Below, piece after piece: positions 28,278 through 35,720 of a stretch of DNA of 64,000 bases (its first letter is position 1; each line of letters opens with the position of its first letter). The stretch is from NCBI RefSeq assembly GCF_011758745.1, contig NZ_JAANOV010000001.1:1860001-1924000 (forward strand), in the 5' to 3' direction. Below the pieces are notes generated by a model. It did not search any database and was not told where the DNA came from. It was given only the letters and a program-made list of their open reading frames with translations. Made by a program: the position numbers and the translations under genes. Origin of the DNA: Amycolatopsis granulosa (GTDB taxonomy: Bacteria; Actinomycetota; Actinomycetes; Mycobacteriales; Pseudonocardiaceae).

Positions 28278-28709
28278 ATGGCCGAATGGACGGACATGGG
28301 CTTGACGGAGGCATTCGGCGACCGGGAACAGCTCAGGGAAATGGGCGACCAAGCGCGGCACTTGCTGGCCGAAGCCAAGTCCGGCGGCTGGGCCGTGGAC
28401 GAAGAAACCGGCACCCATCTCCGCAACGCGATCGCGCGAGCCGAGGACCGGTTCTCGCGGATCGCCATCAACATCGACAGGTTGCGCAACAAGCCGAAGT
28501 TTGGTGACGACGAGTACGCGCAACGGGCAGCGGCGCATTTCCAAGCCGCTATGGACTCTGACCAGCGGTCACTCATTCCGGTGTACGAAGCCGTGCTGGA
28601 CAATCTGAGAACGATCCGCGAAGCACTGGATATTGCGATCAGCAAATACGACGCCTCGAATGAGGCGGCCACGCAGTACCTCGGAAAACTCAAGGGTGCG
28701 GAACAGTGA
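28278..28709 (+). CDS. Helical protein of the DUF3558 cassette, unknown function
   Basis: The 143-residue protein begins MAEWTDMGLTEAFGD and is almost wholly alpha-helical and charged, with no signal peptide or membrane segment; the size and helix-rich nature recall ESX/WXG100-type partners but no WXG motif is evident. ATG at 28278 follows GGAGGG at 28261, eleven bases before. The stop overlaps the start of the DUF3558 lipoprotein gene (GTGA), so the two are co-translated. Its last 20 codons have a decayed duplicate at 29260. I cannot assign a function. Confidence 0.75.
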   Translation: MAEWTDMGLTEAFGDREQLREMGDQARHLLAEAKSGGWAVDEETGTHLRNAIARAEDRFSRIAINIDRLRNKPKFGDDEYAQRAAAHFQAAMDSDQRSLIPVYEAVLDNLRTIREALDIAISKYDASNEAATQYLGKLKGAEQ

Positions 28710-29218
28710 CCGGTAAGCTGGCCACAGTCGCTGTCACCTGCGTGGCGGCCATCATGGCCGGGTGCACCGCCACGGTGCCTGGCACCGCCTCCCCGGCGGC
28801 GAGCAGCACACCCGCTTCAGCGAACAACGGCGATCCGTTTTCCGGCATGGTCGCCTGCCAGGTACTGGATCAACTCAATGCCGGTCAAGGCTACAACCCC
28901 GGCGACAACATCAGCCATCGCAACGAGTGCACCGCGACAAAACCCGGCCTCGGCAGCAACGGTATCGCTCTTGATCCCCTCCAAGGTCTGGCCGAATTCA
29001 AAGAGGTGAATCCCGAGGCCACCGCCACCACGGTCAACAGCCGACGAGCGTTGGAGGTTTTCCACAAGGTCGGCGGGTGCGCGATTGCGTTCGAGGTTGG
29101 CGAACACGCGCGAGTGCTGATCAACGTCGCGATGGCCATGCCCGAGCGCAATGCGGAGGCGTGCCCGCTGGCACACGACTTGGCCTCGCGGGCAGAGCCG
29201 CTACTACCGAAGCGCTGA
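28706..29218 (+). CDS. DUF3558-family lipoprotein, copy 1
   Basis: The 170-residue protein has a lipoprotein signal (hydrophobic stretch, cleavage before Cys in IMAGC, about residue 20), a Ser/Ala/Pro-rich linker and a DUF3558-like domain starting DPFSGMVACQVLDQL. Three cysteines in the domain (ACQ, NEC, GGC) plus EAC could form disulfides. DUF3558 lipoproteins are abundant in Pseudonocardiales and have no known role. It is about three-quarters identical to copy 2 over the domain by eye. Its GTG start overlaps the upstream stop. Confidence 0.85.
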   Translation: MTGKLATVAVTCVAAIMAGCTATVPGTASPAASSTPASANNGDPFSGMVACQVLDQLNAGQGYNPGDNISHRNECTATKPGLGSNGIALDPLQGLAEFKEVNPEATATTVNSRRALEVFHKVGGCAIAFEVGEHARVLINVAMAMPERNAEACPLAHDLASRAEPLLPKR

Positions 29219-29259
29219 GAGCGCCTGCCATAGGTCAACGGCCGTGCTTCGAGGAACCG

Positions 29260-29319
29260 TACGAAACGCGGAACGAGGCGGCCATGCAGTATCTCGGCAG
29301 ATTCAAGGATGCGGAGTAG
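29260..29319 (+). pseudogene. Relic of the helical-protein gene (last 20 codons only)
   Basis: From 29260 the DNA reads YETRNEAAMQYLGRFKDAE and stop, matching the C-terminus YDASNEAATQYLGKLKGAE of the intact gene at 28278-28709. Upstream of 29260 the similarity stops abruptly, so only the last codons remain. It stands directly before lipoprotein copy 2, in the same relation as intact gene to copy 1. This indicates duplication of the two-gene cassette followed by loss of most of the first gene. Confidence 0.85.
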
Positions 29320-29828
29320 TGACCAAGAAGCTAGCGGCAGTCGTTCTTGTCTGCGCGGCGATTACCACGGCCGCGTGTACTTCCACCGTGTCTGGCACTC
29401 CGTTCCGGGCCACCACCGGAGTTCCTACACCGGGGGACCCAGGCGATCCGTTCGCCGGAATGGTCGCCTGTCAGGTATTGGACCAGCTCAATGCCAGTCA
29501 GGGCTTCGGGCCCGGCGACAACATCAGCCATCGCAACGAGTGCACCGCCACGAAACCCGGCCTTGGCAGTAATGGCCTCGCACTTGATCCAGTCCAGGGA
29601 TTGGCGGCCTTCAAGAGGGTCAACCCGGATTCCGTCGGCACCGACGTGAGCGGCCGGAAGGCGCTGCAGGAACAGAGCCCTCTCGGATGCACCATCGCGT
29701 TCGAGGTGAGCGAGCACGCCCGTGTTCTCGCCCAGATGGCCATGTCGATGCCGGAACGCAACGCGGAGGCGTGCCCGCTGGCGCACGACCTGGCCGTGCG
29801 TGTCGAGGCGCTGCTGCCCAAGCGCTGA
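29319..29828 (+). CDS. DUF3558-family lipoprotein, copy 2
   Basis: The 169-residue product has a signal peptide with the lipidation Cys in TTAAC, then DPFAGMVACQVLDQLNASQG and the same pattern of conserved cysteines and the tail ACPLAHDLAVRVEALLPKR as copy 1. The linker and the middle segment (about residues 95-120) differ most. GTG at 29319 overlaps the stop of the relic. A tandem paralogue of copy 1; function unknown. Confidence 0.85.
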   Translation: MTKKLAAVVLVCAAITTAACTSTVSGTPFRATTGVPTPGDPGDPFAGMVACQVLDQLNASQGFGPGDNISHRNECTATKPGLGSNGLALDPVQGLAAFKRVNPDSVGTDVSGRKALQEQSPLGCTIAFEVSEHARVLAQMAMSMPERNAEACPLAHDLAVRVEALLPKR

Positions 29829-33383: not shown

Positions 33384-34034
33384 ATGACCCTTCTCTCGCC
33401 GACCCCGCGCAGCACCCTGACCCGGAAGAAGGACCGGGCAGCCACCGATCGCGAGCGCCTGTACGAGGTGCTCGACGAGGGACTGATCTGCCACCTCGGG
33501 CTCGTGCTCGACGGCTCCCCCGTCGTGCTGCCGACCGGGTACGGCCGCGACGGCGACACGCTGTACTTCCACGGTTCGACCGGCTCCGGGAACGTCCGCG
33601 CCGCGGCGACCGGCATCGACGTGTGCGTCACGGTCACGCTCCTCGACGGTCTCGTCTACGCGCGCTCGCTCAACAACCACTCGATGAACTACCGCAGCGC
33701 GGTGGTGCACGGCAGGGCGCGCCCGGTGACCGGCGAGGAGAAGGTGCACGGGTTGCGGGCGCTGACCGAACACCTGACCCCGGGTTCGTGGGACCACGCG
33801 CGCGCGGTCAACGCGAAGGAACTCGCGTCGGTGGCCGTGCTGGCGCTGGATCTGGAGGAAGCGTCGGTGAAGATCCGCGCGGGCGAGCCGGTCGACGACC
33901 CGGAAGACATGGACAGCCACCACATCTGGGCCGGCGTGGTTCCGGTCCGGACCACCTTCGGCGAGCCGATCCCGGCGGACTACCTGCCCGCCGGGGCGCC
34001 GGTGCCGCCGCACGTGCGGTCACGCCACCGGTAG
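33384..34034 (+). CDS. PNPOx/FMN-binding split-barrel family protein (NimA-like)
   Basis: The 216-residue protein has the split-barrel fold of pyridoxamine phosphate oxidase-like flavoproteins: RERLYEVLDEGLICHLGLVL near residue 24, a GYGRDGDTLYFHGSTGSG segment near 53 and SMNYRSAVVHGRARPV near 98. These proteins bind FMN, F420 or haem. It is divergent from the MocR-type gene, which may regulate it. The ATG at 33384 has only a short leader and no clear ribosome site. Confidence 0.85.
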   Translation: MTLLSPTPRSTLTRKKDRAATDRERLYEVLDEGLICHLGLVLDGSPVVLPTGYGRDGDTLYFHGSTGSGNVRAAATGIDVCVTVTLLDGLVYARSLNNHSMNYRSAVVHGRARPVTGEEKVHGLRALTEHLTPGSWDHARAVNAKELASVAVLALDLEEASVKIRAGEPVDDPEDMDSHHIWAGVVPVRTTFGEPIPADYLPAGAPVPPHVRSRHR

Positions 34035-34070
34035 CTGTGCACCGGCGCCACCGGCGGGCGCGCACGGAAG

Positions 34071-34535
34071 TCAGTCGAGGACCGGGCCGCTGATCGGGTC
34101 CAGGTGGTAGGGCCGCATGACCCGCCCGCCGGTGCGGTAGACGTGCACGCTGATCGCCGGGTCCGGGCCGTCGTTGCGCACCTGGTGCACGTAGCCGGGC
34201 CCGAACACGCGGGACTGCCCGGCCGACAACCGGTGCACCTCGGTGACCCCGCGCCGTGCGACGGTCTCGGACAACCGGCCGGTGACGACGGTGAACGCGC
34301 CCGTCGATACGCCGTGGTCGTGCAGGTCGGTCTGCTGGCCGGGTAGCCAGCCCAGCAGCCAGATCTCGTCATCGTCACGCGCCTCGACGAGCGCGGAGAA
34401 CCGCTTGTCCGGGTCGTAGCGCAGCAGCCGGCGCCAGCGGTCGCGGTCGGCGGCGAATTCGAGCGCGACGCGCACCGGGTGGCGCAGGACGGGCTTCTCG
34501 GCCAGGGCAACGGTGTTGTCCGGAACGGCGAACAT
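34071..34535 (-). CDS. Cysteine dioxygenase-type cupin
   Basis: Cupin iron enzyme that probably oxidises cysteine thiol to the sulfinic acid. The 154-residue protein has metal-binding HDHGVSTGAFTVVTG near residue 70-84 and the third histidine in GYVHQVRN near residue 117. Start ATG at 34535 (MFAVPDN) follows a GAGGACACC site. That site can pair with the cysteine-codon leader upstream, so translation may depend on cysteine supply. A thiol dioxygenase acting on another substrate is possible. It is downstream of gpsA with its own likely promoter. Confidence 0.85.
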   Translation of the reverse strand: MFAVPDNTVALAEKPVLRHPVRVALEFAADRDRWRRLLRYDPDKRFSALVEARDDDEIWLLGWLPGQQTDLHDHGVSTGAFTVVTGRLSETVARRGVTEVHRLSAGQSRVFGPGYVHQVRNDGPDPAISVHVYRTGGRVMRPYHLDPISGPVLD

Positions 34536-34542
34536 GAAAAAG

Positions 34543-34609
34543 GTGTCCTCTGAGGGAAAAGGTGGTTGTCGGACTGGCTGGGCTGGGTCAGCGACAACAA
34601 CAAGGACAC
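34543..34609 (-). promoter_or_regulatory. RNA stem linking the cysteine leader ORF to the dioxygenase ribosome site
   Basis: On the minus-strand RNA, GUGUCCU within the leader's codons (34603-34609) is exactly complementary to AGGACAC at the ribosome site (34543-34549), and the inner pair GUUGUCG/CGACAAC (34592-34598 with 34565-34571) is nested inside it. One long hairpin would hide the dioxygenase start signal unless ribosomes move through the leader. Confidence 0.7.
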
Positions 34610-34662
34610 AGCGCGGCGCCACGGCGGAGTTCCCGCCGGGTCATCGGGCCACGCGTCGTCAT
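34588..34662 (-). CDS. Cysteine-rich leaderless leader peptide (upORF) before the dioxygenase
   Basis: A 24-codon ORF from ATG at 34662 (second Met at 34644) ends in ALCPCCCR and stop, so it has four Cys codons just before the stop. The ATG is seven bases from a -10-like TTGGGT, meaning the transcript probably starts at the ATG. Polycysteine leaderless leader ORFs in mycobacteria attenuate cysteine-responsive operons. The downstream gene here is a cysteine-catabolic enzyme. The peptide itself is probably functionless. Confidence 0.78.
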   Translation of the reverse strand: MTTRGPMTRRELRRGAALCPCCCR

Positions 34663-34669
34663 GGCGCCC

Positions 34670-34698
34670 ACCCAACCAGCGGGCCGGGTGGGCGTCAA
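34670..34698 (-). promoter_or_regulatory. Promoter of the cysteine leader ORF
   Basis: Minus-strand TTGACG (34693-34698), a 17-bp spacer and TTGGGT (34670-34675), then seven bases to the ATG. Spacing agrees with a sigma-70-type promoter and leaderless start. It lies wholly in the gap after the gpsA stop. Confidence 0.65.
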
Positions 34699-34712
34699 CC
34701 TCGTTCCACCTG

Positions 34713-35720
34713 CTAGGACCACTCGTGTTTCTGACGGCGGCCGAGCAGCTCGGCGCCGACCCGGCGCGGGTCCGCGCCCTCGTGGCACACGCGGTGCATC
34801 GCATCCGTGATCGGCATGTCGACACCGTGCTTGCGGGCCAGTTCCCGGATCGAGGTGCACGACATCACGCCCTCGGCGACCTGACCGCCGGTGGCCCGCT
34901 GCGCCTGTTCCAGCGTCTCGCCCCGGCCGAGCCGTTCGCCGAAGGTGCGGTTGCGCGACAACGGCGACGAACAGGTCGCCACCAGATCGCCGACACCGGC
35001 GAGCCCGGCGAACGTGAGCGGATCGGCACCCAGCTTCGTGCCCAGCCGCGCCATCTCCGCCAGCCCGCGCGTGATGAGGGTGGCCGTCGTGTTGGCGCCC
35101 AGCCCCATGCCGACAGCCATGCCACAGCTCAGCGCGATGACGTTCTTGGCGGCGCCGCCGACCTCGCAGCCCACGACGTCGGTGTTGGTGTAGGGCCGGA
35201 AGTAGGAGTTGAAGCTCGCCTGCTGGATCGCCACCGCGCGGTCGTGGTCACTGCACGCGAGCACCGCCGCAGCGGGCTGCCCCTGCGCGATCTCGCGCGC
35301 CAGGTTCGGCCCGGACACCACGACGATCTCGTCCCCGGACACCGCGGTGATCTCGGCGATCACCTCGCTCATCCGCTTCAGCGTGCCGAGTTCGACGCCC
35401 TTGGCGAGGCTGACCAGGATCGCGCCGCGCGGCAACAGCTCCCGCCAGCCCGACAGGTTCCCGCGCAGGCTCTGGCTCGGCACGGCCAGCACGACCGCCT
35501 CCGCGCCGGCCAGCGCCTCCGCCGGATCGGGTGTCGCGGTGAGACTGCCGGGCAGCGTGATGTCCGGCAGGTAGCCGCTGTTGGTGTGCTTGTCGCGGAT
35601 CTCCCCGGCGACCTCTGCGCGCCGGGCCCACATGGTCACGTCCCGGCCGGCGTCGGCGAGCACCTTCGCGAACGCGGTGCCCCAGGACCCCGCACCGAGC
35701 ACGGTGATGCGCTGCACCAT
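34713..35720 (-). CDS. gpsA: Glycerol-3-phosphate dehydrogenase [NAD(P)+]
   Basis: Reduces dihydroxyacetone phosphate to sn-glycerol-3-phosphate for phospholipid synthesis. The 335-residue enzyme starts [20 protein letters not shown] with the NAD-binding glycine motif, and has [15 protein letters not shown] near residue 137 and the catalytic-region segment [13 protein letters not shown] near 187. It starts 2 bases after the plsC stop, so the pair is likely one operon for phospholipid precursors. The ribosome site GAGGTGG lies in the end of plsC. Confidence 0.96.

Follow-up and report, generated by a model that had tools for sequence, protein, structure and literature searches.

Upstream of a thiol dioxygenase gene of Amycolatopsis granulosa lies a short open reading frame (ORF) that ends in a cluster of cysteine codons, and comparison with related genomes indicated that this conserved cysteine leader is real. 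Folding of the region points to a translational leader-peptide attenuator, which would probably turn the dioxygenase on when cysteine is low. The type of leader is known; what is new, and unexpected, is its target, a thiol dioxygenase. A preliminary description of this DNA had noticed the leader and its complementarity to the ribosome site of the dioxygenase, and had proposed that the site is opened at high cysteine; the observation was confirmed, whereas the proposed direction was unsupported. All positions below are those of the window, which is the whole stretch of 64,000 nucleotides that was analysed.

The leader ORF and its target gene

The leader and its target were located as follows.
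34588..34662 (-), leader ORF of 24 codons with an ATG start and a TGA stop, translated as MTTRGPMTRRELRRGAALCPCCCR
34594..34608 (-), cysteine codon tract TGT CCT TGT TGT TGT (Cys-Pro-Cys-Cys-Cys)
34071..34535 (-), target gene, a CDO_I-family thiol dioxygenase (cupin) of 154 amino acids, identified by a match to profile PF05995

The translation placed four cysteines among the last six sense codons of the window leader, and its C-terminus, ALCPCCCR, was kept in loci L001-L003. The 24-codon ORF that had been described as ending in LCPCCCR and a stop was found on the minus strand at 34662-34588. It is situated between the upstream neighbour gpsA, which ends at 34713, and the CDO_I-family gene, with a gap of 52 nt from the leader stop to the dioxygenase start. 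The dioxygenase is followed by a convergent gene of the pyridoxamine-oxidase family (33384-34034, +), so it appears to stand alone. A profile search with the window leader returned 0 families at E up to 1, and the cut-off of NCBIfam NF042934 was not reached. A known Rfam element was rejected as an explanation, since no Rfam match was obtained up to E 1 across 34000-34900.

The dioxygenase matched PF05995 with an E-value of 3.4e-15 and 56.4 bits (cut-off 23), which upholds the target named in the preliminary description as a gene of the CDO_I family. Residues H72, H74, H117, H131 and Y133 were invariant in 14 of 14 aligned sequences (the window and 13 relatives), and the first three are those that we take to bind the iron. 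The fold matches of the window enzyme were ergothioneine, cysteine and 3-mercaptopropionate dioxygenases. The closest solved structure was the ergothioneine dioxygenase of Thermocatellispora tengchongensis (PDB 8qfl-8qfr), whose identity of 27% is too low for its substrate to be transferred to the window enzyme; the 3-mercaptopropionate dioxygenase 6xb9 was likewise 27% identical. The N-terminus of the dioxygenase, MFAVP (residues 1-5, 34535-34521), was invariant in the 14 aligned sequences, and many leaders likewise start with MFA. The start region of the dioxygenase may be under an RNA-pairing constraint.

Conservation of the leader

Scanning the genomes of GTDB species yielded 94 relatives of the dioxygenase, of which 80 were kept and 79 had upstream sequence (L011 did not); the conservation counts refer to 80 loci, namely the window and 79 relatives. 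The kept relatives belonged to Amycolatopsis, Lentzea, Saccharothrix, Umezawaea, Actinophytocola, Haloechinothrix and Actinokineospora, and the nearest was A. tucumanensis with 90% identity. A joint rule was applied, which required a distance of 40-75 nt between the leader stop and the gene, two or more Cys among the last ten codons, and a start 35 or 36 nt after TTGA or TTGC. The rule was satisfied by 72 of the 80 loci and by 0 of 4570 control points taken from both strands of the same loci, ruling out a chance ORF. Loci failing the rule had another -35 spacing (L005, L041 and L056), one Cys (L055, L062, L075 and L079) or a 125-nt gap (L080), and the leader stop was set by hand in L045, L055, L062, L075 and L079. 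Lack of conservation of the Cys codons in relatives had been named beforehand as grounds for abandoning the leader; on comparison, 76 of 80 leaders contained at least two Cys in their last nine codons. Leader length ranged from 8 to 31 codons, and the peptide was highly variable except for the Cys tract and the final Arg, which was the last sense codon in 78 of the 80. The stop codon was TGA in 61 leaders and TAG in 19.

Codon choice in the leaders was extreme. Cysteine was encoded by TGT 235 times and by TGC 30 times in the 80 leaders, compared with a ratio of 3:17 in eight window genes and, as a further codon control, 74:416 in upstream ORFs. The proline codon CCT made up 23 of 36 in the leaders as against 2 of 169 in window genes; it made up 351 of 2386 in upstream ORFs, a rougher control set. 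The Shine-Dalgarno (SD) region contained AGGAC in 73 of 80 loci and GGAG in none of the 80. In Amycolatopsis palatopharyngis, two leader-dioxygenase units (L066 and L067) were present on one contig about 36 kb apart.

Putative promoter region

Upstream of the leader, the following elements were read.
34693..34698 (-), -35-like box TTGACG, beginning 36 nt upstream of the leader ATG
34670..34675 (-), weak -10-like element TTGGGT, 7 nt before the ATG, a poor fit to TANNNT
34666..34693 (-), inverted repeat across the -35/-10 spacer, GCCCACCC (34693-34686) and GGGTGGGC (34673-34666), read by eye
34704..34718 (-), degenerate palindrome TCCTA-N5-TGGAA, 15 nt, upstream of the -35 box

Among the 75 of 80 loci in which a -35 element was found, its spacing was 36 nt in 47 and 35 nt in 23, and the -10 position in relatives read TTCGCT, GACTCT or GACCCT. 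This promoter spacing suggests that the leader ORF is leaderless. A strict sigma-70 promoter scan found none.

The palindrome upstream of the -35 element occupies a fixed place in relatives, where it reads TCCCA-N5-TGGGA and starts 19-20 nt upstream of the -35. Its strict form was present in 46 of 75 loci, with the window copy outside these 46, as compared with 2 of 200 shuffles, and its right half-site was present in 72 of 75. The palindrome is possibly the binding site of a regulator. Lentzea loci such as L052 carry an inverted repeat, GAGGGTCCCGG-TTCCGGGACCCTC, that spans the promoter spacer and overlaps both the -35 and the -10. The spacer inverted repeats of the window and of Lentzea are perhaps an operator or the gpsA terminator.

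Predicted pairing of the cysteine codons with the ribosome site

Folding of the leader and spacer gave two helices.
34603..34609 (-), 5' arm of the outer helix, GUGUCCU, in and next to the Cys-Pro codons, in the minimum-energy fold
34543..34549 (-), 3' arm of the outer helix, AGGACAC, containing the SD AGGA (34549-34546)
34592..34598 (-), 5' arm of the inner helix, GUUGUCG, in the last Cys codons, unsupported by spacer shuffles
34565..34571 (-), 3' arm of the inner helix, CGACAAC, likewise unsupported by spacer shuffles

The GUGUCCU/AGGACAC helix of the minimum-energy fold agrees with the complementarity to the ribosome site that had been claimed for the leader codons, and both helices vanished on refolding once the first 60 leader bases were omitted. 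A ribosome was then represented as an unpaired footprint, with kinetics ignored, and the readout was the cost of opening positions -18 to +6 of the dioxygenase start. With an empty leader, this cost was 8.8 kcal/mol in the window. A ribosome on the successive Cys codons lowered it by 2.4, 2.4, 2.9 and 2.2 kcal/mol (mean 2.5) and a ribosome on the stop codon by 2.2 kcal/mol, while one on the last Arg codon gave no opening in the window (8.7 vs 8.8). When the last ten codons were recoded synonymously, none of 150 recodings matched the mean effect of the window, and recodings as good numbered 0 of 60 for L001, 2 of 60 for L002 and 0 of 60 for L003. The recoding tests covered 40 and 25 hand-chosen loci in two runs, 4 of them common to both; in the 40 loci, the mean opening effect was 3.1 as compared with 0.2 after recoding, and in 25 of the 40 at most 1 of 30 recodings was as good. 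Shuffling the spacer left the effect in place (mean 2.5 vs 3.1; 10 of 30 in the window), so that the partners appear to be the leader codons and the SD region, the inner helix being unsupported by the shuffle test. In this model, RNA structure involving the Cys tract is predicted to hide the ribosome site of the dioxygenase gene in the window.

The mean opening effect was seen in six of seven clades, to which 75 of the 80 loci were assigned. Between an empty leader and a ribosome on the codons just before the stop, the mean cost fell from 9.3 to about 7 in the window clade, from 12.7 to about 7.6 in Amycolatopsis of the CPC type, from 12.4 to 6.6 in the Actinophytocola type, from 10.0 to about 7 in Umezawaea, from 10.0 to about 7.5 in Lentzea and from 13.8 to about 10 in Saccharothrix. 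No opening was found in the CRCCR clade of Amycolatopsis (31 loci; mean 7.9 when empty, about 8.4 with a ribosome) or in Lentzea L053 and L054 (-1.0 and -1.1), and in L017, L025, L032, L035 and L043 between 23 and 30 of 30 recodings were equal or better. The CRCCR clade, which retains the Cys tract without detectable SD pairing, would suit a conserved small ORF that exerts no cysteine control on the dioxygenase gene, its role being constitutive coupling or that of the peptide itself. However, such an ORF hardly explains why otherwise different leaders of 8 to 31 codons keep terminal Cys codons, why their TGT bias is extreme and why leaders precede other CDO-family genes as well, and we regard it as very unlikely.

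Other measures of the pairing gave smaller signals. A plain duplex-energy test was weak: in the window, 61 of 300 recodings were as good, the mean z was -0.8, and 25 of 107 loci reached the 5% level or better. GC-rich recodings may form other duplexes. Covariation was weak as well, since most helix pairs were invariant (permutation P 0.019, uncorrected for kinship), and the clearest compensatory case in the helix was L005, with CCUCG facing CGAGG. A first table of SD accessibility showed a modest difference (mean free probability of the SD 0.16 when empty vs 0.27 with a ribosome); it had used too early a Cys codon in, for example, L001, L004, L007, L012 and L050, and was superseded by the opening-cost tables.

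Leader translation could instead control an intrinsic or Rho-dependent terminator ahead of the dioxygenase gene. A terminator-like score was indeed obtained for a stem at 34623-34607 with the U-rich Cys codons behind it (2 overlapping sites, against a mean of 0.2 in shuffles), and Rho is proposed for mycobacterial cys leaders in an excerpt of PMC1262725. However, the scored stem lies inside the ORF, the scan of 34400-34900 found no terminator-like site between 34588 and 34535, and hence no intrinsic terminator between leader and gene as in a classical attenuator, and pairing with the SD accounts for the codon choice without a terminator. Transcriptional attenuation is thus unlikely.

Probable direction of the response

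Under the translational attenuator that we favour, transcription would start at the leader's own ATG, as the promoter spacing suggests, and ribosomes would enter at the 5' end. With ample Cys-tRNA they would clear the TGT codons fast and leave, and the vacated Cys-Pro codons would fold back and hide the dioxygenase SD through the helix obtained by folding. If Cys-tRNA runs short, ribosomes would pause at the Cys codons and mask the leader arm, leaving the SD free, so that the dioxygenase would be made. Because an occupied Cys tract frees the SD, the gene is expected to be on when cysteine is scarce, and because more cysteine means shorter ribosome stays, abundant cysteine should leave the site closed. 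The polycysteine leaders of mycobacteria follow the same logic.

The preliminary description had argued the reverse: ribosomes passing at high cysteine would open the site, and the enzyme would then remove the excess. For a true cysteine dioxygenase this would be physiologically neat. In Lentzea, moreover, the leader arm ACC(U/A)GGCGA pairs just 5' of the SD and a GUCCU downstream of the stop is able to pair with the SD itself, an arrangement that, judged by eye, allows mutually exclusive forms. According to an excerpt of PMC7181669, cdo genes of Streptomyces SCUT-3 rose 50- and 8-fold on feather medium; since keratin is rich in cysteine, this rise could point to induction at high cysteine and counts against a gene that is on at low cysteine. 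However, when cysteine is high, a translating ribosome spends less time over the Cys codons, and the vacated arm then closes the SD; furthermore, it is with the leader occupied that the mean opening cost falls, as seen for six of the seven clades. As the helix closes on empty Cys codons and opens under a ribosome, the opposite direction is likelier, and induction by ribosome passage at high cysteine seems quite unlikely.

The gene could also be on at high cysteine through nascent-peptide arrest. TnaC, the leader peptide of the tryptophanase operon tnaAB of E. coli, senses free Trp by arrest at its stop codon, and like the window leader it precedes a degradative gene. By analogy, a Cys-rich nascent peptide together with free cysteine or a related thiol would block release at the stop, and the parked ribosome would keep the SD open. 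This rival was kept because a ribosome on the stop codon also opened the window site, by the 2.2 kcal/mol given above, and the nearly constant final Arg and the restriction of the stops to TGA and TAG would suit it. Against it stand the variability of the peptide outside the Cys tract and final Arg, the use of TAG in 19 of 80 leaders, and the strong TGT bias, which is better explained by pairing or slow decoding. We consider arrest of this kind a little less likely still.

If the attenuator indeed turns the dioxygenase on at low cysteine, the enzyme would probably serve to release sulfur from other thiols and not to dispose of excess cysteine, which suggests that sulfur salvage is the better fit. 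In Gordonia, an excerpt of PMC7661421 reports higher expression of a cysteine dioxygenase and of sulfurtransferases on organosulfur sources than on MgSO4, and in a feather-degrading Streptomyces two CDO genes were up at 96 h alongside CysD/NC/C/H, as stated in the available part of PMC12763843. A gene labelled as cysteine-degrading would then become a marker of cysteine shortage, its natural substrate would be predicted to be other than surplus cysteine, and the reach of ribosome-directed cysteine control would widen from the sulfur operons of mycobacteria to include thiol dioxygenases in actinobacteria such as Amycolatopsis, Lentzea and Saccharothrix. The cysteine level at which the gene is on, low or high, would tell salvage apart from disposal, and ordinary attenuation from arrest by the nascent peptide.

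Comparison with known cysteine leaders

Leaderless polycysteine short ORFs of mycobacteria were reportedly described by Canestrari et al. 2020 (Mol Microbiol), and the RNA there is said to keep the ribosome site covered except while a ribosome pauses at the Cys codons. That study is cited in the available parts of PMC9094748, PMC13236596 and PMC9031893, and the general scheme of mycobacterial polycysteine control is restated in the Discussion of PMC13236596. The window leader resembles these ORFs in being short and probably leaderless, with a terminal Cys cluster upstream of a sulfur-metabolism gene. It differs in that its target is a CDO-family thiol dioxygenase of the Pseudonocardiales and in that the Cys-Pro codons supply the helix arm; for the window leader, the mechanism is a computational prediction. 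Cys-codon clusters like that of the window leader also occur in the cys leader peptides predicted for Mycobacterium, P. acnes and B. longum (PMC1262725) and in the upstream ORFs of cysA2, Rv0485 and nirA (PMC4633059); according to excerpts of these two papers, the leaders precede cys, cbs or other genes, and a dioxygenase is not named there among the targets. The family NF042934, "putative leader peptide", is actinobacterial, and the CDO leader of Umezawaea scored below its threshold (11.4 bits vs a cut-off of 27), while the window leader gave no match. Among the literature matches listed, none reported a leader peptide or a leaderless upstream ORF for a cysteine dioxygenase of bacteria.

Leaders at other loci

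A class-wide sample of 148 genomes contained 79 with a CDO_I match. Leaders were sought at 71 loci, comprising 70 of the 99 listed matches outside the window genome, L083-L112 among them, plus L082. A loose rule (three or more Cys among the last ten codons, or two or more together with a -35) detected a Cys-rich upstream ORF at 30 of the 71 loci compared with 1 on the opposite strand, although several of the 30 look accidental (e.g. L098, L119 and L126) and L094, where the contig begins, was scanned at the wrong place.

An ORF like MTDTDVRLWRRVHMDLVRYAGCVCRPSC was present in 10 of 10 loci of L083-L092, which are probably Streptomyces, and in most of them the leader stretch CCGUCCUG can pair with CAGGACGG of the SD. 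The mean opening effect (recodings as good, n = 15) was 6.4 (0) for L083, 4.0 (2) for L084, 4.0 (1) for L085, 2.7 (0) for L087 and 2.4 (7) for L091; the duplex test against recoding did not single out the L083-L092 group (43 to 215 of 300). The Cys tracts ahead of a second CDO-family gene of this genus are longer, and for some of them pairing with the region of the start codon is possible. Here the opening effect (recodings of 15) was 3.4 (0) for L113, 5.1 (2) for L115, 5.6 (0) for L116, 2.1 (1) for L117 and 6.1 (0) for L134, and little effect was observed for L114 (0.4; 9), L120 (0.2; 12) and L123 (-0.6; 14). In another family of the same order, presumably Mycobacteriaceae, the ORFs end in ECCR plus a residue or two, and the values were mixed: 3.1 (12) for L147, 3.2 (13) for L148, 0.1 (0) for L149, 3.5 (2) for L150, 1.1 (7) for L151 and -2.0 (11) for L152. 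For L107, the effect was -0.1 (1 of 15).

It is conceivable, though we hold this only tentatively, that a cysteine-starvation response, controlled by ribosomes waiting on leader peptides, takes in many of the actinobacterial genes labelled "cysteine dioxygenase", that convergent leader families use their Cys codons as anti-SD or anti-start sequences, and that the enzymes are thiol dioxygenases of sulfur salvage, acting for example on ergothioneine or other thiols.

The window genome itself holds further leaders. Its second CDO-family gene, L082, is followed by a rhodanese match and has a Cys-containing leader of its own, MRFVSTSRFRRRRFWRNRAVDLVLVASCGCSPTRQGR, with an opening effect of 2.9 (6 of 15 recodings as good). 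At positions 1197-1283 of L168, a leader ORF of the RRHVDFRRVASALC type, VTSAGVLLVVRRHVDFRRVASALCRETN, stands before a long ORF that precedes matches to PAPS reductase and that, by its position, is probably nirA. An automatic scan of the sulfur-gene loci of the window genome gave no convincing polycysteine leader; the one near PAPS reductase was found by eye and checked by translation. A scan of the window genome with the pattern TGYTGYNNNTGA was uninformative (275 sites vs 149 for the reversed pattern). Elsewhere in the window, at 28706-29828, two similar tandem ORFs resembling lipoproteins each contain PGDNISHRNECTATKPGLGSNG.
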